Shown: positions 1,889 to 30,257 of the stretch, one piece after another | Layout of the letters: the number at the start of each line of letters is the position of its first letter | Numbering within the stretch: the first letter of the stretch is position 1 | Source: Cognaticolwellia mytili | Lineage (GTDB): Bacteria > Pseudomonadota > Gammaproteobacteria > Enterobacterales > Alteromonadaceae | Reading direction: 5' to 3' | Length of the DNA stretch: 64,000 bases | Assembly (NCBI RefSeq): GCF_002104475.1 | Contig: NZ_NBOF01000003.1 | Span: forward strand, 124,001-188,000 | Position numbers and translations under genes: made by a program | The notes under the pieces: model-generated | Databases searched by the model: none | The model's input: only the letters and a program-made list of their open reading frames with translations | Told to the model about the DNA's origin: nothing

Positions 1889-4465
1889 ATGACGCTATCG
1901 GCTAGAAAGTTGCCAATTGATAATATCAAAGACGATGTTATTTCAACGTTAAAACAACACAATACCTTATTATTAACGGCGCCTCCAGGTGCGGGTAAGT
2001 CCACTCAGTTGCCTTTGTGGTTACTAGCATTAGATTGTTTAGCTGGAGAAAAAATATATTTGCTTCAGCCTCGACGCATTGCTGCTAAAAATATTGCCTG
2101 TTATCTTGCGTCACAGTTGGGTGAGAAGGTTGGTGAGACTGTTGGGTATCGCTTACGAAATGAAAGTAAAGTATCGAAAAGCACCCGGCTAGAAGTGATA
2201 ACTGAAGGGATTTTAACGCAGATTATTCAGCATGATGCTGAGTTGTCTAATTGTGGGCTGATAGTGTTTGATGAATTTCATGAGCGCTCACTTAATGCTG
2301 ATCTTGCATTTGCCTTGACCCGAGATGTGCAATTAGGTCTACGAGATGACTTGAAAATTCTGCTGATGTCGGCAACGCTAGCAACAGATACCATAAAACA
2401 AAAGTTGCCAGAAGCGGTTTGCCTTGAAAGTCAGGGGCGAAGCTTTCCTGTTGAAACTAGTTACCAGGCACCTACCAATGCCCGACTATGGCGTGAACAT
2501 GCTTTATCGGCTTTAAAATCAGTGGTTAATTCCCATCAAGGCTCAATATTAGTATTTTTACCGGGCACTGGTGATATCCGTTATTTAGCTGAGCAGTTAT
2601 CAACTTTTATGCCTGAGTCGATGTTGTTATGCCCTCTTTACGGTGACTTATCGCTTAGCGAGCAACAGCAAGCCATTGCCCCTGCACAAAACGGTAAGAA
2701 TAAACTCGTGCTGGCAACCAATATTGCAGAAACCAGCTTAACCATAGAAGGCGTCGATTTAGTCATCGACTCTGGTTTAGAAAATGTCGCCATCTATGAT
2801 AATCAAACATTGACCAATAAGCTCACGCAGCGAGCTATTGCCAAAGCATCAGCCATTCAACGTACTGGCCGAGCAGGGCGATTACAAGCCGGTCATTGTA
2901 TCCGTTTATTTAGCAAAGATGACTTTCAGCGCAGAAATGAACAAAGCGTTAGTGAAATTCAACAGGCTGATTTGTTACCTATGTTGATGGAGTTGGCAAG
3001 ATGGGGAGCAAGTGATTGCTCACAACTACCGATGATAGAAATGCCTGATGGTAAGCATGAACAGCTTGCTTGGCAGGAGTTGATTGATTTAGGTTTGCTT
3101 TCAGAAAACAAAAATTTAACGCATGACGGCAAACAAGTAAGCGTTTTTCCTTGTCACCCAAGATTTGCAAAAATGTTGCTAAGTGCGCAACAGCTAGAGC
3201 GGCAACAAGATATTAGCCACTTATTGTCATTAGCTTGCTTACTTGCTGCGTTATTAGAAGAACGCGATATTTTTAATGCGCAGCAGCGCAGCGATGATTG
3301 TGATATTGCGCATCGCGTTATACAACTTTGTCAGCAGCCCAAAAGAGGCAATCATCAACGTATTATTCAACAAGCTCAGCGCTTTTTTCGTTTAGCACGT
3401 CAGCAAGGCACTCAAAATATTCGGCAAACTCATTCGGCAGACAAGCTGTGTACTCTTGGGGGAGATTTGCCTATTCAATATTGTGGTTTAATACTAGTGC
3501 ACGCCTATCCAGAACGAATAGCAAAACAGAGAAATAACCAAGGGCACTACTTAACTGCCTACGGTAAAGGCGTAGTGATGAATGAAGCCGATGCCTTGGC
3601 GGGAGAAAACTATATTATTGCTGCGCAATTATTTCAACGGCAACATACGCTCAGTATCGCATTAGCAGCAGAGTTTGATTTACTACAAGCAATCGCTTGG
3701 GGAGTGGTTAATACGACCAGTAGAACGCACTTAAAGTTTGATAATCAGCTCAACCGTATTATTTCGGGTCAGCAGTCGGTGATTGGTGCATTGGTGATTA
3801 AAGACGAAAATAGTTCACAAAAAATATCGCCAGAGTTACTTGTTGACTGTTGGTGTCAACAAATACGTAAGAAAGGTCTTAATTGGTTGAAGTTTGATAC
3901 CGACAGTCAGCAACTTTTGTTACGTTGGCGTTGGGTAAATAGCACGCAAAGTCATTTAGATTTTCCTGAGGTGGGCGAGCAGTTTTTATTAAACAATTTA
4001 GAGCAATGGTTAGGACCTTATTTAGCCGATATTACAACTAAAAATCAGCTTGATAAGCTTAATTTTTCAGAAGTGTTGCTTAACCAATTAAGCTACCAAC
4101 AGCAGCAGGTGTTTAAACAAGTCGCCCCGACATTTTTTGTTGGGCCAACTAAGCGTAAGTGCGTTATTCGCTATAGTTTAGAGCAAGCACCGATTGTTTC
4201 CCTACCGATGCAAGAGCTATATGGTGTGACGGAAACACCTTCTGTAGGGGATAGGGCGAATAAAAGTCAAATTCCATTAGTTATTGAAATACTATCGCCT
4301 GCGAAGCGTCCTATTCAAGTAACACAAGATTTAGTGGCATTTTGGCAGGGGAGTTATCGTGCGGTACAAAAAGATATGAAAGCACAATATCCGCGACATT
4401 ATTGGCCGGATGATCCTGCTAATGCAGAAGCAACGAGAAAAACTAAGCGACACCTTAATGTTTAA
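1889..4465 (+). CDS. hrpB: ATP-dependent helicase HrpB
   Basis: A DEAH-box family helicase of 858 residues, close to E. coli HrpB (about 810-820). The Walker A motif APPGAGKST is near residue 35, the DEAH-type box reads DEFH at about residue 128, SAT motif III follows, and the C-terminal helicase domain contains TNIAETSLTIEGV and QRTGRAGR. The C-terminal HrpB-specific region ends in a typical HYWPDDPANAEAT segment. In E. coli hrpB neighbours thpR (ligT) and mrcB; here thpR is adjacent and mrcB lies about 4 kb downstream, so part of the ancestral neighbourhood is kept. Its cellular role is poorly defined in the family. Confidence 0.95.
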   Translation: MTLSARKLPIDNIKDDVISTLKQHNTLLLTAPPGAGKSTQLPLWLLALDCLAGEKIYLLQPRRIAAKNIACYLASQLGEKVGETVGYRLRNESKVSKSTRLEVITEGILTQIIQHDAELSNCGLIVFDEFHERSLNADLAFALTRDVQLGLRDDLKILLMSATLATDTIKQKLPEAVCLESQGRSFPVETSYQAPTNARLWREHALSALKSVVNSHQGSILVFLPGTGDIRYLAEQLSTFMPESMLLCPLYGDLSLSEQQQAIAPAQNGKNKLVLATNIAETSLTIEGVDLVIDSGLENVAIYDNQTLTNKLTQRAIAKASAIQRTGRAGRLQAGHCIRLFSKDDFQRRNEQSVSEIQQADLLPMLMELARWGASDCSQLPMIEMPDGKHEQLAWQELIDLGLLSENKNLTHDGKQVSVFPCHPRFAKMLLSAQQLERQQDISHLLSLACLLAALLEERDIFNAQQRSDDCDIAHRVIQLCQQPKRGNHQRIIQQAQRFFRLARQQGTQNIRQTHSADKLCTLGGDLPIQYCGLILVHAYPERIAKQRNNQGHYLTAYGKGVVMNEADALAGENYIIAAQLFQRQHTLSIALAAEFDLLQAIAWGVVNTTSRTHLKFDNQLNRIISGQQSVIGALVIKDENSSQKISPELLVDCWCQQIRKKGLNWLKFDTDSQQLLLRWRWVNSTQSHLDFPEVGEQFLLNNLEQWLGPYLADITTKNQLDKLNFSEVLLNQLSYQQQQVFKQVAPTFFVGPTKRKCVIRYSLEQAPIVSLPMQELYGVTETPSVGDRANKSQIPLVIEILSPAKRPIQVTQDLVAFWQGSYRAVQKDMKAQYPRHYWPDDPANAEATRKTKRHLNV

Positions 4466-20769: not shown

Positions 20770-21642
20770 TTAAGTGGATGGCTGATTAAATATGCCCATC
20801 TTAATAAAGTAGCTGCGCCAATTACTCCAAATAGCAGCAATTTTTTCTTTGTGGTAGCCGTTATGGGTATTTAATTTTTGCTTAGCTATTTCAATATCTC
20901 TGCCATTAACTAAATCTTTCATAAATAAGTACTGGCCGTAGTTTAGATCTATTAACCCTAAACGATAATTACGTCGAATGATCAAACCATAACTCACTTC
21001 GGGTAGAGGAAGTTCTGGTTGTTTCTCGTCATTAAAGGCACGGTAGTAATCGAAAATAGCATGTTTATGGCAAAACAGTTTTAGTATGGGTACTAAGCTT
21101 AACTGGCTGTCTAGGGTATTTATATTAGCTTGCGTTTGTTCATGGTCTAATGGGCTATTAGCGACTTCTAAATCAAATAACAAGTTTAGACTATATTCAA
21201 AGTCGGCAAGTTCAATCATAAAATCAGGCCAATCTTCTTTCACTTCATCTTGAGCATCAGGGCGAGTTTGGCCTAAGAATAAGCTAAAATTATCACCCAA
21301 ATTATTTAAGCTGTAGTGCTTAGACGGATAAGTATGCAAATATTGGCGAACAAATAAATGAAATATATCATCGCCCAAAGCAAACTTTAATGCACTAAAT
21401 TGACTCGCCATACATTGCTGCAGCCTTAGAACATAACTACGTTGGTAAACACTCACGTGTGCCTTGGCTGTCATTTTTATTGATGAATTTATCTCAGTGT
21501 TAATAAACTCTTGATGTTTTTGGTATAGCTGCGGACTTAATATAACTTGTTGCATCTCATGTTGTAACACCGATAGCGCATTGTTCTTGGTGACTAAGGC
21601 CGTATTATTTTTAGCGATTAGGCTATTATTTTTCGGGCTCAT
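20770..21642 (-). CDS. DUF2063/BufC-HvfC-like partner of the MNIO enzyme
   Basis: A 290-residue soluble protein whose N-terminal part (HEMQQVILSPQLYQKHQEF through SVYQRSYVLRLQQCMASQF) matches the DUF2063 family, sometimes called a putative DNA-binding domain. In bufferin and related clusters this family (BufC/HvfC) works with the DUF692 enzyme, probably in substrate recognition. Its start overlaps the stop of the MNIO gene by four bases (ATGA), so the two are translationally coupled. It is last in the four-gene operon. The N-terminal 24 residues (SPKNNSLIAKNN...) are an unusual Asn/Lys-rich lead. Family likely; role inferred from characterised clusters. Confidence 0.78.
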   Translation of the reverse strand: MSPKNNSLIAKNNTALVTKNNALSVLQHEMQQVILSPQLYQKHQEFINTEINSSIKMTAKAHVSVYQRSYVLRLQQCMASQFSALKFALGDDIFHLFVRQYLHTYPSKHYSLNNLGDNFSLFLGQTRPDAQDEVKEDWPDFMIELADFEYSLNLLFDLEVANSPLDHEQTQANINTLDSQLSLVPILKLFCHKHAIFDYYRAFNDEKQPELPLPEVSYGLIIRRNYRLGLIDLNYGQYLFMKDLVNGRDIEIAKQKLNTHNGYHKEKIAAIWSNWRSYFIKMGIFNQPST

Positions 21643-22637
21643 TTTTCCACCTGAGTGTGGTGGAAGCGGTTTTGTTTATGCACGATAAAATCAATCGGAT
21701 TTGATATCGCAGATGATTCAGCTGCCGCTGACTGAGAGCAACGGCTTGTTGAAAAAAACTCATCAGGCAATGTCGTCATAAACTGCTTAGCTTTTAACAG
21801 TTCTTGGTGATAAACCTCAAAAGTAGGAATGTTACCATCCCATTCTAAGCTAGTTGCACAGCCCTTTGTAAGTTGCCACGCTAAATTGAACAATTGCCAA
21901 ACTGCAGGAGTCACCTGACTATCGTGAGTATCAACAATATGATCTCCACAATGTTGATGCCCTGCTAAATGCATTTGCACTATCGCATGATGTGGTAACG
22001 ACTTGATATAAGTAACAGGGTCAAAGTCATTATTAAACGCAGAGACATAAACATTGTTAACATCTAGCAACATACCGCAACCAGTATCACTAATTAAGGC
22101 ACTAAAAAATTCCCATTCAGGAATGGTTGATTGTGTAAAACTTAAATAGCTACTTGGATTTTCTAATACTAAAGGTTGTTGCAGAATATCTTGTACTTGG
22201 TGCACGCGATTAATGACATGGGCCAAAGACTCCTCAGTTAGTGGCAAAGGTAATAAATCATGAGTATTTAGGCTCATAGCGCCTGTCCAGCATAGATGGT
22301 CGCTAACCCATGCAGGTTTAATTTCGTCAATCAGTTGCTTAAGTTTAGTCAAATAATTGAGATCTAGAGCGTCGGTACTACCAATAGATAAAGACACGCC
22401 ATGCATAACAATTGGATAATGCTCAGCTATTTGACGCAGAATATGACGTGGCCTGCCACCCGAGTCGATAAAGTTTTCAGAAATAATTTCAAACCAGTCA
22501 ACTTCAGGTTTATGCTGCAAAATAGTATTAAAGTGCTGACTGCGCAAGCCAAGGCCTAGCCCTAAATTGGCTTTGGCCTTTTTAATTTGCGAGGCTGATT
22601 GAAGGGGCGCATTAGTCATAGCAATAGTATTGCGCAT
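21639..22637 (-). CDS. DUF692 multinuclear non-haem iron oxidase (MNIO)
   Basis: A 332-residue TIM-barrel enzyme of the DUF692/MNIO family, which uses two or three iron ions to oxidise cysteine or other residues in ribosomally made peptides. Hallmarks are GLGLRSQHFNTIL, DWFEIISENFID, PIVMHGVSLSIG, VSDHLCW, LENPSSYL, LLDVNNVYVSAFN and QMHLAGH followed by DTHD, which together supply the metal-binding His, Glu and Asp residues. It starts two bases after the stop of the Cys-rich gene, the likely substrate. Family is secure; the chemistry on this substrate is unknown. Confidence 0.9.
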   Translation of the reverse strand: MRNTIAMTNAPLQSASQIKKAKANLGLGLGLRSQHFNTILQHKPEVDWFEIISENFIDSGGRPRHILRQIAEHYPIVMHGVSLSIGSTDALDLNYLTKLKQLIDEIKPAWVSDHLCWTGAMSLNTHDLLPLPLTEESLAHVINRVHQVQDILQQPLVLENPSSYLSFTQSTIPEWEFFSALISDTGCGMLLDVNNVYVSAFNNDFDPVTYIKSLPHHAIVQMHLAGHQHCGDHIVDTHDSQVTPAVWQLFNLAWQLTKGCATSLEWDGNIPTFEVYHQELLKAKQFMTTLPDEFFSTSRCSQSAAAESSAISNPIDFIVHKQNRFHHTQVEK

Positions 22638-22639
22638 GG

Positions 22640-23263
22640 CTAATCTTTGTCATCACAAGCACAATTTTTCAGGGTCTTGGGCAGTTCATCTCGGCTGCGA
22701 TCGACCAGTTCTTGAGTGTTTTCTGCTGGGCTATTAAAGCCAAATGAACAAGATTTATCACCAGAATTTCCACAAGAATCGTATTCGCCAAAAGACGATA
22801 GCCAAGCTTGCGGCGGTCCTGCTGAAAAAGGGGCCTCGGCAACGTTACGTCGTGCTTTTTTCATCCGTTGTTCAAACAATTCTCTAGCCAATAGCCATAC
22901 GCTTTTATCTTTGTTTGCGCCAAGGGTACTAAAACGCTCAGCCTGAATAGGCGTAGCACAACTACCTTGCCACGAGCAATCATTTGCTCCTGGTTTACAT
23001 TGCTCCGCGCCATCACCAAATAAGCCACAGCCGCCTTGGCCTGCGCAATTATTCAATGTATGACAAACATGGGTTTCAGTTGCGCAATAACCAGCGCCAG
23101 CACAACTATTACTACCAAATCTATCATGACCTTTACAGGCATTTAACCCCATACAAGCATGCAGCTCTAAAGGTGCTTTAATATCCGCAGTATCGCTTGA
23201 TGGTGGCGTAACTGGTTGGCTACCACAACCATTACTTAAAGGTTTATCTTTTAATGTCGACAT
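22640..23263 (-). CDS. 15-cysteine protein, candidate MNIO substrate
   Basis: A 207-residue protein with Cys at positions 13, 37, 43, 54, 60, 67, 73, 79, 89, 96, 102, 164, 172, 201 and 203. Five pairs have CX5C spacing (37-43, 54-60, 67-73, 73-79, 96-102), with recurring N-x-C-x-G and GQGGC units. This resembles the Cys-repeat core of BufA2-type bufferin precursors. It differs by having no signal peptide and by a long C-terminal extension (about 105-207) with a helix SVWLLARELFEQRMKKARR and a second Cys motif, YDSCGNSGDKSCSFGF. AGAGGA precedes the ATG. Its place directly before the MNIO gene suggests it is modified or loaded with metal; this is inference. Confidence 0.75.
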   Translation of the reverse strand: MSTLKDKPLSNGCGSQPVTPPSSDTADIKAPLELHACMGLNACKGHDRFGSNSCAGAGYCATETHVCHTLNNCAGQGGCGLFGDGAEQCKPGANDCSWQGSCATPIQAERFSTLGANKDKSVWLLARELFEQRMKKARRNVAEAPFSAGPPQAWLSSFGEYDSCGNSGDKSCSFGFNSPAENTQELVDRSRDELPKTLKNCACDDKD

Positions 23264-23291
23264 ACACTTGTCCTCTAATAATTAGCTGGTC

Positions 23292-24653
23292 TTACGCCAT
23301 TAATGGTGTGTTGGATTTTTCAAGAAAACCTGCTTGTGAAACATCGGGCAAATCATGAATGCGCTGTTCAATATAAGCTATGCCTTTATAAGCACCTACT
23401 GCTTGGTTGAATAACGCAATAATTTGCGTTTTCGGACTTGATGCCGAACTAAATTGATACTCTTCATAAGTTGCGGTTGCTGCGTACTGTTTTCCGTCAG
23501 CGCCTAAATAGGTAAAGTTAGTCATTTCGCCGCATAACGAGCTCAGGATCCATAGCATCGTCTTATGAATGCCAAACATAAAAATTTCAAACTGTGTATG
23601 TTCATCGGCGTGATAACAGCCTTGAGACATAATAAAAAGGTAGCTGTATACCGCATTCGTTAATGTAGAAACTGATGCTATGGCGGGTGGGTAATCAGTG
23701 GTATTAGCATTATCTTTAATATTGTGAATAAAATATTTATCCACTTGCATCTCGTCACCAAATTGCTTTTTAAACGCTAGAGTGATTGCTTTTAGCTCAT
23801 CTTGTAATTGTTTAAATTTATAATAGTGAGCCAATTCATTATGTGATTTATCATCAAAGTCACAATCGGCTCCTTCGCCTTGTTCAACAATAGTCTCTAA
23901 AGCCTTAAGTGCGCTAGCTTGGTCAACAACATGGATTAAATTTCCGGCATCAGCTGAATTTTCATAAACCGGTTTATGCTCTTTGTTATAATAAATAGTG
24001 TCGATATTATTTTGTGCATAATAGCCGCGATCTGGAATAAGTTGCGCACGATCTGCATGATAGTCCTTGTCATCACGATAATGATCTCGAATACAATCTT
24101 CTATACCTTGGTAAAACTCCCCTATCGTGTAATACGGAATAGCACCAACCTTTACTGTACGTGCTTTAAGACGTTCAGGGCTTTCTATTTTCAAAAATGT
24201 TGCTAATTGCTCATGGCTTAATTTTGCGCGATTAATAGCAAAAGGTGGCTCGTGGCCCGCCAAATAAGCTGGCCATACACTAGGTGATTTACCGATTAAT
24301 TCTGGGTCGCCAAACATCGCTTGTTTCACATTGGCAGCGAGCGACATATGTAGCATTTCTTCTACTAGTACGCTCATCACATTAGCACCGGCTTTATTGG
24401 CAAAAACCATTATTTTGGCTGAGAATTCTTGCGCTTGAGTTGCTGCTTGTTGTTCGGTTAAACCTTGTGCTAAAAGCCGCTCGGTAAATTCTGCGGTAAG
24501 TGCGGGCTGTTTTGGTGTTCGGTTAATCGAGTAATAGGTGGATAAATAGGTCGGTAGCGTGGCAATTTCTATCTCTATTGCCTGTTGTAACGCTTCTTTC
24601 ATATTGTCAGGCGTTATATCAGTGATGCCACTTTTTAAAAAATGAGTTTGCAT
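23292..24653 (-). CDS. VioB-type ferritin-like protein
   Basis: A 453-residue soluble protein whose N-terminal 240 residues fit the ferritin-like domain found in iminophenyl-pyruvate dimer synthases (the VioB/RebD group). Likely iron ligands include Glu27/Glu29 in AIEIEIATLPTYLSTYYS and the ExxH of VEEMLHMSLAANV (Glu99, His102). Other family features are GEFYQGIEDCI and the hydrophobic helix block after residue 340. In violacein and rebeccamycin pathways the domain couples oxidised tryptophan units, but no other pigment gene is here. AAGGAT lies six bases before the ATG at 24653. It heads the operon with the Cys-rich protein and MNIO. Domain likely, activity unknown. Confidence 0.75.
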   Translation of the reverse strand: MQTHFLKSGITDITPDNMKEALQQAIEIEIATLPTYLSTYYSINRTPKQPALTAEFTERLLAQGLTEQQAATQAQEFSAKIMVFANKAGANVMSVLVEEMLHMSLAANVKQAMFGDPELIGKSPSVWPAYLAGHEPPFAINRAKLSHEQLATFLKIESPERLKARTVKVGAIPYYTIGEFYQGIEDCIRDHYRDDKDYHADRAQLIPDRGYYAQNNIDTIYYNKEHKPVYENSADAGNLIHVVDQASALKALETIVEQGEGADCDFDDKSHNELAHYYKFKQLQDELKAITLAFKKQFGDEMQVDKYFIHNIKDNANTTDYPPAIASVSTLTNAVYSYLFIMSQGCYHADEHTQFEIFMFGIHKTMLWILSSLCGEMTNFTYLGADGKQYAATATYEEYQFSSASSPKTQIIALFNQAVGAYKGIAYIEQRIHDLPDVSQAGFLEKSNTPLMA

Positions 24654-25065
24654 TTTCACATCCTTATCGTCAATCATCAGTGTCTGTGGTGATTATTATT
24701 ACAAGGTTATTGCTATCTTAACTTTTCTCTTACCTTGTACCTTATTGCATTATTATCACGGTTAACTGTTAAATTTTTATTGTTAAATACAACAAAACAA
24801 TAGGCATAAACAGCCAGTAAAAATATTACACAGCATTACAACTAAAACGGAATTTCAACGTAAATACTCAGCTGTAGCGCAACTACTCGTTAAAGGTTAA
24901 AAAAAGCCAAGGCAAAAAAGTTGCAAAATAGTGACGTTTTGGATCACACTAGGATAATTAGTCGAGCAGTTATTTGCTCAGTTGAATTCGAGAGCATTTT
25001 TTATCATAAATACTGCGACAATATGCAATGTATTAATGTTCGAAATATCGAGATAAGGAAACGCG
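24654..25065. other. Divergent promoter region, no gene
   Basis: AT-rich spacer between the start of the ferritin-like gene and the start of the FHA gene. It must hold the promoters of both. I see no clear Fur box, riboswitch or open frame with a ribosome site. AGGAAA just before the FHA start codon is the only clear signal. Confidence 0.5.
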
Positions 25066-26106
25066 ATGGCCGTTTTAATGAATAAGAAAACTCAGCAAAA
25101 TTGTTTATTACAATCGCATCATAGTTTTGGGCGACTGAAAAGTTCAGTGAATACATTTATTTCTGATGTTTATATTTCTAAAATCCATGCCTTTATTGAA
25201 TGGAATGACGAACATTGGCTTTTACGTGATGTGAGTAGTAATGGTACTTGGGTCAATGGCAACCGATTATTGGGCGATAAAGTTGTACAGCTTCATACAG
25301 GTGATGTTATCGCTTTTGCTAGTAAGTCGGGTTACACCTTTGAAGTGTTAGATGTCAATCCACCTTGTGATTGTTTAGTGCCAGTTGAGCATAACAGTGA
25401 AGCTATTGAACTTGATTATTTTCATTTAATACCGAGCAAAAAGTCACATAATATGGTGTTAAGCTATAACAATAAAACCTATTCTTGGTGGCAAGAAGTC
25501 CTTGACGATAACCTGAGCAAGTCAGTAAGCGCTAATGAACTTAACGACCAAGAATGCTTAGATATAGACGGTTTAACATGGCAGTTGCAAATAAATCGCA
25601 CCATTGCTGATACCCAATTACTCAGGCCTAATGTCGCATCGCTTGATGAATTAACCTTTCTTTTTCAAACCAGTCAAGATGAAGAAAGCACCCATGTTTT
25701 TATGCAAAATGGTGAAGAAAGCATTGATTTATTAGTCCGTAGTCATCATTACCTTACGCTTTGCTTGGCACGACAACGCGCTAAAGATATGCAAGAAAAC
25801 CTCGATGAAAGCGAGCAAGGCTGGGTATACGCTGAATTATTAGCGAAAGATTTAGGGCTAGAAGCGAACCACTTAAATATTCAAATTTATCGTATTCGTA
25901 AACAATTTGTTGATGCCCTCAATAATGCCTGTGAATCGAGTAATATTATTGAACGTAATGCTGGCAAGTTGCGTTTAGCGAGTAAGTTTTTTCGAGTCAT
26001 TAAAGGTGACAGCCTTGAGTGTGATACTAGCCAATTTACTAAAAATATGCCGGATCAAAGAGCTAGTGATGAAGCTCACCAGCGCCAATATGCTAATCAG
26101 CATTAG
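25066..26106 (+). CDS. FHA-domain protein with C-terminal winged-helix region
   Basis: A 346-residue cytosolic protein. Residues about 15-100 form an FHA domain, a phosphothreonine reader: HSFGRLKSSV, SKIHAFIEW and the highly conserved DVSSNGTWVNG. The C-terminal third (EQGWVYAELLAKDLGLEANHLNIQIYRIRKQF) looks like a winged-helix DNA-binding domain of the response-regulator type. A Ser/Thr kinase gene lies 1.4 kb downstream on the same strand, so the FHA domain may read phosphorylation by that kinase and link it to transcription. That link is inferred from proximity. AGGAAA precedes the ATG. Confidence 0.82.
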   Translation: MAVLMNKKTQQNCLLQSHHSFGRLKSSVNTFISDVYISKIHAFIEWNDEHWLLRDVSSNGTWVNGNRLLGDKVVQLHTGDVIAFASKSGYTFEVLDVNPPCDCLVPVEHNSEAIELDYFHLIPSKKSHNMVLSYNNKTYSWWQEVLDDNLSKSVSANELNDQECLDIDGLTWQLQINRTIADTQLLRPNVASLDELTFLFQTSQDEESTHVFMQNGEESIDLLVRSHHYLTLCLARQRAKDMQENLDESEQGWVYAELLAKDLGLEANHLNIQIYRIRKQFVDALNNACESSNIIERNAGKLRLASKFFRVIKGDSLECDTSQFTKNMPDQRASDEAHQRQYANQH

Positions 26107-27503: not shown

Positions 27504-30257
27504 GTGACACAAAACAACGAAGTAAGCCAAGCAGACCATACCAATCACGACAACGATACCATTGCGATGTCGATAGCTGATACTCAGTTTAGCCAGCAGG
27601 TTTTTCTTTCTGAAGATGAACAAGCCGCGCAATTGAAAAAAAGCAGTATGGCGCACTTTAAAATTATCGATATTTTAGGTAAAGGCGGCATGGGCGCGGT
27701 GTATAAGGCGAAAGATTTAGCCTTAGAGCGTTTTGTTGCCATTAAAATGTTACGGGTTAGCCAAGCACAGCAGCCGCTTATATTGGCGGAAGCAAAAACC
27801 ATTTCACAGCTTAATCACCCTAATATCGTTACTGTACATGATATTGCCCGCGATGGTGATGCTAGCTTTATTGTTATGGAATGGATTAACGGCAAACCGT
27901 TGAATGCTGTTATTCCATCGACAGGCTTAGCGCTTAATATTGCTGTTGATTATGCCAAACAAATGGCAATGGCACTGGATTGTGCTCACCAACAGCATAT
28001 TATTCATCGCGATATTAAGCCGCAAAATATTATGGTTGATGTTAACGGGCGAGTAAAAATTCTCGACTTTGGCATTGCCGGACTTATCGGCTCAGCGCCA
28101 TCAGCAGAGCCTTTAGTAGAAAAAGAGCCTTTAACAGAACAAGCGCCATCAGTAGATTTAGCCGAAGCAGAGGCAAGTATTATTGTCGGTTCGCCGCAAT
28201 ATATGTCGCCAGAGCAAATTCAGGGGCATGGTAGCGATGCCCGCTCTGACTTGTTTTCTTTTGGCATTGTTTTATATGAAATGCTAACGGGCGTTAAACC
28301 TTTTTTGGGTTTGAATTTAGCGCAAATTAGGCAGGCGATCAGCACAGGGCAATATACGCCGTTAACCGAATTTGACGCGGAACGAAAAACGAAACAACAA
28401 GCAAAACTGCCAAGCGAATTAATTGCTGTGGTCGACAAATTACTGGCGAGCACGCCATCAGCGCGCTACCAAAGTGCGACTGAACTTGTAAAAGACATTG
28501 CGGTAATCGATGACGCGATAAACCAGAAAAAAAATTGGTGGCAGCAACAGCATTGGCTAACGAAAACTTTACTAGTACTCCCTGTTATCGCGGTGTTAGC
28601 TTGGAATGTTCGTAGCACGTTATTTCCGCCGAGCACCCAAGAGTTGATTGCCCGGCAATTAATTGAGTCGAAAAAAATTGCCTTTTTACCGTTTGATAAC
28701 ATTAGTGGCGATCCAGTGTTACAAATATTCAGTGATGGTGTGGCGACCATGCTCAGTAGTGATTTAGCGGAAGTCGGTTACCAGCAAGGTGACGGTAGCA
28801 CTTGGGTATTGCCAACTAGCGAAATTAGCAAGCTTGAAGACCCGAGCGTGGCAGGAATTTACAACAAATATGGTGTCGATTTTATTATCACTGGCAGCAT
28901 TCAACATATGGGCTCTACCCGTAGCATTCATTTAAGTTTAGTGAATGGCGCTGATGGTCGGCAATTGAAATCACAGCAACTGACTATTGACGCCAATAAC
29001 TTATTTGCTGCACAAACTCAAATTCGAAAACAGGTGATGACTTTACTGGGTTGGCAAATACCTACAGAATTAACAGCAAAGTTCGCCCAACAAAAGCCCG
29101 ACTTTGATGGTGCTTATAAGCATTATTTACAAGGGCAAGGTTATTTATACCGTTTTGATCATAAAGATAATATTAGTAAAGCGCTTGAATCTTTTAGTGC
29201 AGCGATTTCGATAGATTCTAATTATGGTGATGCCTATGTTGGTTTGGCGGAAGCGCAATTACGTAGTTTTATTACCACCAAAGATGTACGCTTATTAGCA
29301 CTTATGGTTAAAACGGTTGAACAATTAATATTGGTCGCAAGTGAGCATCCGCTGCTCAGCTATTTGCAAGGAGAACTTAGGTTTAATCAAGGGGAGTATG
29401 CCGATGCCATTGAATTATTCAGTAAAAGCATTGATTTACAGCCGAGTTTTTTGAAAGCTTATACTGGGCTTTCATATGCATATGTAAAGTTAGGTGACTT
29501 TGCCAAAGCAGAACAAATTTTATTAAAGGCCTATGAAATTATGCCTAATAATAACACTATATTGACCGATTTAGGTGTTTTTCATTTTGAAAATGGCGAC
29601 TATCACAGAGCAATAGTTTTTTTTGAATTATTAGCTCAACAAGCACCTAATAATTACATAGCCTATTTAAATATTAGCGCTTGTCATTATCTTAATGGTG
29701 ATTTTAAAAAAGCAATTTTAGCGGCTAAAAAAGCAGTAAAAGTTAAACCTGATTATATTGCTTATTCAAACCTTGGCACTTCCTATTTCATTTTGAAAAA
29801 TTATGATAAAGCGGTTGAAGCTTTTGAAAGTATGATCGCCTTAAACAATCATGATTATATGAGTTGGGGCAATTTAGCCGATGCTTATCGTTTTGCTAAT
29901 AATGATAAATATGAAGAATCATTTAGACATGCAATAATGCTGGCAGAGCAAGCACTTGGGCTTAATATCAATGATAAAGCAGCGATTGCCTCTTTAGCGT
30001 ATTATCATGCCAATATAGGTAATAGCGATAAAGTACATTTTTATGCTCAACAAATTAATGAAAATGATCTTGGTGAAAATCAGTTTTCTGTTGCTGCTGC
30101 TTATGCTCAATTAAATCTCAATTCAGCAGCAATGAAATACTTAACTTTTGCGATTAAAAATAACTATTCCATTGCCGAAATATCAAACTCACCATTATTT
30201 AATAATTTAGAAAGTGAATCCAAGTATCAACAATTAATGAGTACAACCATAGAATAG
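27504..30257 (+). CDS. Transmembrane Ser/Thr protein kinase with TolB-like and TPR regions
   Basis: A 917-residue Hanks-type kinase. The cytosolic kinase domain (about residues 50-340) has the glycine loop GKGGMGAVYKAKD (59-71), VAIKML with the ATP-binding Lys near 80, HRDIKPQNIM near 168, DFGIAG near 188 and SPQYMSPEQIQG. An insert rich in Glu and Pro lies in the activation-loop region. One membrane helix follows (about 352-372). The outer part starts with a TolB/FlgO-like domain (KIAFLPFDNISGDPVLQIFSDG) and continues in at least six TPR-like repeats to the end. The start is GTG; the ribosome site is weak, so an ATG 22 codons on is possible. The FHA protein upstream is a natural phosphoprotein partner. 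Confidence 0.88.
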   Translation: MTQNNEVSQADHTNHDNDTIAMSIADTQFSQQVFLSEDEQAAQLKKSSMAHFKIIDILGKGGMGAVYKAKDLALERFVAIKMLRVSQAQQPLILAEAKTISQLNHPNIVTVHDIARDGDASFIVMEWINGKPLNAVIPSTGLALNIAVDYAKQMAMALDCAHQQHIIHRDIKPQNIMVDVNGRVKILDFGIAGLIGSAPSAEPLVEKEPLTEQAPSVDLAEAEASIIVGSPQYMSPEQIQGHGSDARSDLFSFGIVLYEMLTGVKPFLGLNLAQIRQAISTGQYTPLTEFDAERKTKQQAKLPSELIAVVDKLLASTPSARYQSATELVKDIAVIDDAINQKKNWWQQQHWLTKTLLVLPVIAVLAWNVRSTLFPPSTQELIARQLIESKKIAFLPFDNISGDPVLQIFSDGVATMLSSDLAEVGYQQGDGSTWVLPTSEISKLEDPSVAGIYNKYGVDFIITGSIQHMGSTRSIHLSLVNGADGRQLKSQQLTIDANNLFAAQTQIRKQVMTLLGWQIPTELTAKFAQQKPDFDGAYKHYLQGQGYLYRFDHKDNISKALESFSAAISIDSNYGDAYVGLAEAQLRSFITTKDVRLLALMVKTVEQLILVASEHPLLSYLQGELRFNQGEYADAIELFSKSIDLQPSFLKAYTGLSYAYVKLGDFAKAEQILLKAYEIMPNNNTILTDLGVFHFENGDYHRAIVFFELLAQQAPNNYIAYLNISACHYLNGDFKKAILAAKKAVKVKPDYIAYSNLGTSYFILKNYDKAVEAFESMIALNNHDYMSWGNLADAYRFANNDKYEESFRHAIMLAEQALGLNINDKAAIASLAYYHANIGNSDKVHFYAQQINENDLGENQFSVAAAYAQLNLNSAAMKYLTFAIKNNYSIAEISNSPLFNNLESESKYQQLMSTTIE

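Follow-up and report, generated by a model that had tools for sequence, protein, structure and literature searches.

What does a Cys-rich protein with no evident export signal do when its gene lies between that of a ferritin-like protein and those of an MNIO-DUF2063 pair? This question is raised by a four-gene operon in a 64,000-nucleotide stretch of the Cognaticolwellia mytili contig NZ_NBOF01000003.1 (assembly GCF_002104475.1, positions 124,001 to 188,000 of the forward strand), hereafter called the window. An earlier note on this DNA had proposed two iron-dependent oxidases acting on one Cys-rich substrate. Having followed the four genes across genomes, we tentatively favour another answer, which we hold to be just short of probable: the operon yields a cytosolic, post-translationally matured metalloprotein, in which the MNIO and DUF2063 proteins modify the Cys protein and the Cys protein pairs with the ferritin-like protein.

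The four genes are tightly spaced: 28 bp and then 2 bp separate the first three, and the last two overlap by 4 bp. The open reading frames (ORFs) and family matches agree with the operon, the coordinates, the 207-residue, 15-Cys protein and the DUF692/MNIO and DUF2063 assignments given in the earlier note (Table 1). Matches of the window proteins to PF12902 (gathering score 22.3 bits), PF05114 and PF09836 all lie above the Pfam cut-offs, and the Cys-rich protein has no match in Pfam at E up to 1. The ferritin-like ORF has a further in-frame ATG upstream at 24677, and an AAGGA motif is located just 5' of the ATG at 24653. Promoter-like sites were about as numerous as in shuffles (17 vs 15.8) and terminator-like sites slightly more so (6 vs 3.6, standard deviation 1.7); neither was used as evidence.

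The arrangement is not a product of chance, because its gene order recurs in all 32 genome-contig loci that were found with the Cys protein. These loci were obtained by scanning genome contigs with a three-sequence alignment (A1) of the Cys protein and short peptide patterns, which gives a lower bound; 32 were confirmed among 61 candidate stretches, comprising 20 from Bacteroidota, 10 from Pseudomonadota and 2 from Acidobacteriota. In profile searches, every one of them has the ferritin, Cys and MNIO genes on one strand and in an unchanged order, and 31 have DUF2063. Together with the window and a same-genus locus (L005) this makes 34 operons, L006 and L030 being the same Ghiorsea operon and counted once. 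Some loci are incomplete: the contig ends inside the MNIO gene in L023 and inside the DUF2063 gene in L007, the ferritin gene of L019 is cut by the contig start, and the MNIO and DUF2063 genes of L038 are broken (with one TAG in the MNIO gene). A Cys-protein search of 60 relatives matched two genomes, that of the organism itself and a single one among the 16 from its genus (locus L005; 83% identity, gene order identical to the window), and a search of 398 genomes of the phylum matched the own genome and G151.

The same picture was obtained from the ferritin side. The 296 Bacteroidota genomes searched were drawn around G451, which carries the operon; five of them, G451 included, matched at E up to 1e-10, and all five have Cys and MNIO genes behind the ferritin gene (412-628 bits on the family profile), in loci too short to reach the DUF2063 position. 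The sole extra match was a G451 paralogue of 125 bits, without a Cys or MNIO gene behind it. The co-conservation check suggested by the earlier note thus came out positive from both sides. PF12902 is present in 13 of 200 Pseudomonadota genomes; two of these (own genome and G151) represent the operon, and no Cys or MNIO gene lies within ~1.5 kb in the other 11. MNIOs are present in 58 of the 200 genomes; when 30 other MNIO loci were inspected within ~1.5 kb, no operon-type ferritin was found. A phage or plasmid system was also considered, and the collections searched gave no sign of one: none of 22 pattern matches in viral contigs was confirmed as a relative, and the plasmid collection contained no match to the family.

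The ferritin-like gene stands first of the four in every locus, which upholds the earlier claim that a second type of iron protein heads the operon. The label "VioB-type" survives only in part: the PF12902 domain is indeed shared, but the TIGR04492 VioB equivalog model gives 18.2 bits against a cut-off of 1250, indicating that the window protein is not VioB. In an alignment of 31 ferritin sequences (L006, L019, L023 and L038 left out), the candidate di-iron ligands E29, E99, H102, E157, E260, E273 and H276 are invariant. The modelled relative, the Ghiorsea fusion L030, matches the ferritin-like protein CC_0557 (PDB 3hl1), which has the same PF12902 domain and fold, with Z 25.4 and 2.6 Å over 273 residues. 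Its further matches are ferritin-family chains at Z 12.0 and below, a weak range common for helical bundles, so that only 3hl1 stands out. In the profile match, 3hl1 has the same residues at E29, E99, H102, E157, E260 and H276 but not at E273. On the family profile the operon ferritins score 412-639 bits (229 for the L038 fragment), whereas other PF12902 proteins reach 45-127 bits or do not match. A viral fold search returned nothing under E 0.001.

In the Cys-rich protein, C37, C43, C54, C60, C67, C73, C79, C96, C102 and C164 are invariant in 34 sequences and C172 is kept in 33, whereas C13, C89, C201 and C203 are variable. Most conserved Cys sit in C-x5-C units resembling BufA2. With an E threshold of 0.01, the BufA2 model is matched by 26 of 30 members, and CdeC, a Cys-rich exosporium model, weakly by two of the 30 (best E 0.0019). 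As the earlier note had it, the protein is long, shows no signal peptide and differs from known bufferins. By hydropathy, on which all our signal-peptide judgements rest rather than on SignalP, its N-terminal maximum is 0.25, compared with 2.44 and 2.47 for bufferin controls. The 29 other unfused Cys ORFs, whose start codons are uncurated, have 155-278 aa and 11-22 Cys, with a highest N-terminal hydropathy of 1.77.

The window MNIO scores 353.8 bits on NF050167 MNIO_BufB, above the cut-off of 310. In a tree of 62 sequences (32 from operons, with L006, L023 and L038 dropped, and 30 others; root drawn at midpoint only), the operon MNIOs form one group (100/99), which sits alongside the bufferin MNIOs and away from the EGKCG group. 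The window enzyme has W266-D267-G268 at its presumed substrate-selectivity site, equated with the FonB site by reading of the motif. The residue after the presumed catalytic Asp is Gly in 22 of 31 operon MNIOs, compared with Asp in four of six BufA2-type and Phe in five of five EGKCG-type loci, and excerpts of PMC13097082 tie this position to substrate choice in MNIOs. The DUF2063 partners match PF09836 at E up to 0.01 in all 29 operons scanned of the 34, and the window protein gives 37 bits on the HvfC model, below its cut-off of 142. We also observed a second, diverged MNIO-like match of ~99-118 bits in five Bacteroidota operon carriers (G451, G464, G465, G466 and G475).

The ferritin-like and Cys proteins form a single ORF in four of the 34 operons, found in two Acidobacteriota metagenome-assembled genomes (MAGs; L029 and L033), a Ghiorsea MAG (L030) and Methyloglobulus morosus (L036). 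Fusion of the MNIO or DUF2063 to either protein was not seen in the operons, and this pattern suggests that the two form a stoichiometric pair and that the maturases act catalytically. In the MNIO tree, a single supported clade of eight rows contains all four fusions together with four unfused loci; the Alphaproteobacteria L031, L032 and L035 of this clade have separate genes, and their Cys gene has an ATG close to its start. No export signal was detected by hydropathy before the ferritin domain, fusions included (peak 1.8 in L030, a probable upstream extension, otherwise 1.32). An extra N-terminal domain in the 1081-aa ORF of L029 was considered and rejected, since its first ~386 residues have no Pfam match and match no other locus ORF; they were treated as a spurious upstream extension. 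Among the six gene pairs, the pairwise-identity correlation is highest for ferritin and Cys protein (r 0.86), which would fit a partnership between the two. Between the window and the same-genus genome G001, the ratio of nonsynonymous to synonymous substitution rates (dN/dS) is ~0.06-0.09 for the Cys, MNIO and ferritin genes, a rough value at dS 1.4-2.0; dS is saturated for DUF2063.

Regarding the mechanism, we propose three steps. Judged from its family, the MNIO, docked by DUF2063, would oxidise some of the 11 conserved Cys, most likely to 5-thiooxazoles by analogy with other MNIO-PME1 pairs; these two proteins would act as maturases. The modified Cys protein, whose co-conservation and fusion with the ferritin-like protein are observed, would bind this di-iron protein at ~1:1 or be fused to it, and would stay intracellular. 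Finally, the pair would serve as a redox or thiophilic-metal (copper-type) protein, the modified Cys domain providing a metal site or cofactor arm. A more specific version appears rather unlikely to us: the MNIO would turn Cys into heterocycles (5-thiooxazoles or another, new group) that an intracellular ferritin-like di-iron enzyme uses as its integral metal site or cofactor.

The three-step proposal draws on the recurrent gene order, the ferritin-Cys fusions, the BufA2-like Cys core, the apparent lack of signal peptides and of DoxX, the scarcity of shared neighbour families, the invariant candidate di-iron ligands, the low dN/dS and the ferritin/Cys identity correlation. Several observations weigh against it. 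The window Cys protein scores 23.4 bits on NF050166 BufA2, below the curated cut-off of 60 bits, and an hhalign comparison of the family with six BufA2-type proteins gave a probability of 88.6 (E 2.6e-6, 30 columns), which falls below the usual threshold of 95. Few of the Cys-Lys motifs typical of BufA2 occur in the Cys protein; given this and the differing MNIO selectivity residue, the chemistry may not be 5-thiooxazole formation. The pairwise-identity correlation is lowest for Cys protein and MNIO (r 0.53, with 0.69-0.80 for the other four pairs), a value that would be of no help to the substrate reading. The four fusions, lying in one clade, may represent one event with later splits. In addition, AlphaFold predicted no docking, because most of the Cys core in the L030 fusion model has a predicted local distance difference test (pLDDT) score < 50; the model of the Cys protein alone is also poor (mean pLDDT 57.8), and we assign no fold to it. 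Such low confidence would be expected for a chain that becomes ordered only on modification or metal binding, and a shallow alignment could equally cause it.

The scheme of the earlier note, a RiPP-like pathway (ribosomally synthesised and post-translationally modified peptide) in which the MNIO and a ferritin-like di-iron enzyme both modify the Cys protein, the latter in cis when fused, seems to us possible rather than probable. Co-conservation of the genes and the invariant candidate di-iron ligands speak for it, as do the DyP-like and LanC-like genes, of oxidative or RiPP type, near some operon copies; enzyme-substrate fusion, moreover, is known in borosins. However, a fusion supplies one enzyme per substrate, the DyP and LanC neighbours occur in only two loci apiece (a further two have a weak DyP relative), and no peptidase or exporter family is widely recurrent among the neighbours, where the commonest family, LuxR-type regulators, reaches five of 32 loci. 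Given that the fusions join ferritin to the Cys protein alone and that no other shared family exceeds 5/32, the role of stoichiometric partner is at least as plausible as that of a second oxidase on one substrate. The sequences allow both putative roles of the ferritin-like protein, that of a second tailoring enzyme and that of a partner to the completed Cys protein.

That the two proteins contribute to metal homeostasis without joint chemistry, the ferritin-like protein oxidising or storing iron or feeding the MNIO while the modified Cys protein buffers cytosolic copper, is improbable. The predicted ferritin-type fold would suit such a role, and bufferins and captophorins are linked to copper in excerpts of PMC12452194 and PMC13097082; but such a ferritin was found within ~1.5 kb at none of the 30 other MNIO loci, and an iron supplier fused to the Cys protein rather than to the MNIO would be unexpected. 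Last, an unmodified, metallothionein-like subunit that is not an MNIO substrate would agree with the length of the Cys protein, its apparent lack of a signal peptide, the low Cys/MNIO correlation and the weak CdeC matches, but is very improbable in view of the BufA2 resemblance of the Cys core, the position of its gene directly before the MNIO gene as in bufferins, and the separate MNIO clade.

The matured-metalloprotein reading can be compared with described systems. With captophorins and bufferins (MNIO-PME1) the operon shares a PF05114 MNIO, an adjacent DUF2063 (PME-type 1) and a Cys-rich gene directly before the MNIO gene; it departs from them in having no Sec signal peptide on the precursor by hydropathy. 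According to excerpts of PMC13097082, the MNIO-PME1 pairs of studied captophorins form 5-thiooxazoles, and >20,000 examples of this type are read as copper-associated peptide systems; the part of PMC8224329 covered lists two copper-induced DUF692 genes of Caulobacter in a table. The closest likeness is to bufA2B2C2 (BufA2-type bufferins, Cys-Lys captophorins), in which a Cys protein directly precedes MNIO and DUF2063, and the C-x-G-x-N-x-C-K-G core is similar; the MNIO_BufB model is passed by the window MNIO. In contrast to BufA2-type bufferins, the operon has a longer Cys protein with a C-terminal extension bearing two extra Cys and no apparent signal peptide, a dedicated ferritin-like gene or fusion, a separate MNIO clade with mostly Gly at the selectivity site, and no DoxX found. 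DoxX was found neither in the window nor in any of the 34 locus records (of which L006 and L030 are the same operon; for 25 of the 32 loci, 1.5 kb is available on each side), whereas 18 of the 30 other MNIO loci have it, two of these having supplied queries.

PMC12452194 surveys MNIO substrates, among them long precursors, precursors without a signal peptide and fusions to MerC or cytochromes. It associates Sec signal peptides on precursors with PME-type 1 partners. Putative adjamnio-I precursors, as described there, lack a signal peptide, have 122-293 aa and 8-21 Cys and precede an MNIO, a range into which the window protein fits; their major organisation is reported to have a PME-type 2 partner without a DUF2063 signature, unlike the DUF2063 partner in 29 of 29 scanned operons, but the two groups may still be the same. 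The MerC|Buf2-type fusions of the same source resemble ours in joining a bufferin-like domain to a metal-related protein, but they sit in the membrane, with their bufferin domain facing the periplasm, whereas the ferritin-like fusion has no export signal by hydropathy. The word "ferritin" is absent from the main text of PMC12452194, and in the parts covered of PMC8224329 (a cited title) and PMC7907618 (ferritin-like meaning Dps) it co-occurs with MNIO words only in unrelated places. In the literature covered (titles, abstracts and word counts, with few subscription papers), there was no account of a ferritin-like protein with an MNIO, and we did not find a description of an operon, intact in three phyla, that pairs or fuses a ferritin-like protein with an MNIO-associated Cys protein.

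Regarding the surroundings, divergent FHA and Ser/Thr kinase-TPR genes lie upstream of the operon in the window. They were considered as regulators and not counted in the system, as G001, of the same genus, keeps them but the 32 genome-contig loci do not, apart from one weak kinase match. In two Hymenobacter loci, a DyP-type peroxidase-like gene stands 11-12 bp before the ferritin gene (best PDB match for L022: 8re3, E 1.4e-27), and a weaker DyP relative is nearby in two Rhodobacterales loci. These latter two, and no others, have a LanC-like gene 122 bp before the ferritin gene, and in L007 a Laminin-G and FAD-binding/BBE oxidase gene precedes it by 128 bp. Elsewhere in its own genome, the organism has two ordinary bufferin loci, L001 and L003, both with MNIO, DUF2063 and DoxX; the precursor is a tandem BufA2-type protein in L001 (motif read by eye) and DUF2282 in L003, where a thioredoxin gene directly precedes it.

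Table 1 Positions of the operon, its parts and neighbouring genes; each position counts within the stretch named in the second column.
Feature	Stretch	Positions	Strand	Details
Four-gene operon	window	24653-20770	minus	order ferritin-like, Cys-rich, MNIO, DUF2063
Ferritin-like gene	window	23292..24653	(-)	453 aa; PF12902, 132.5 bits
Cys-rich gene	window	22640..23263	(-)	207 aa, 15 Cys; candidate MNIO substrate
BufA2-like Cys core (residues 34-103)	window	22955..23164	(-)	C37, C43, C54, C60, C67, C73, C79, C96, C102 in C-x5-C units
Conserved C-terminal extension (residues 105-175)	window	22739..22951	(-)	C164 and C172; not in the six BufA2-type proteins aligned
MNIO/DUF692 enzyme gene	window	21639..22637	(-)	332 aa; PF05114, 359 bits
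DUF2063 partner gene (PME-type 1)	window	20770..21642	(-)	290 aa; PF09836, 54.2 bits
FHA protein gene	window	25066-26106	(+)	divergent, upstream of operon
Ser/Thr kinase-TPR gene	window	27504-30257	(+)	divergent, upstream of operon
DyP-type peroxidase-like gene	L022	3938-5491		Hymenobacter
DyP-type peroxidase-like gene	L037	3854-5461		Hymenobacter
Weaker DyP relative	L032 and L034	11447-13129		Rhodobacterales
LanC-like gene	L032	3686-4975		PF05147, 167.7 bits
LanC-like gene	L034	3689-4975		
Laminin-G and FAD-binding/BBE oxidase gene	L007	1564-4119		
Thioredoxin gene	L003 (own genome C1:44550-48401)	2751-3068		PF00085, 96.2 bits

If the more specific version, with Cys heterocycles as metal site or cofactor, is true, a RiPP-type modification would here serve a subunit of an enzyme instead of a secreted peptide, and single-chain versions would exist in nature. 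The family departs from the correlation between PME-type 1 partners and signal peptides, as it combines a PME-type 1 MNIO with a long, probably intracellular precursor that is tied or fused to a ferritin-like protein. Being compact and having natural fusions, the four-gene set offers a system for asking whether MNIO chemistry builds a protein cofactor, and also a way into the role of PF12902 ferritin-like proteins.

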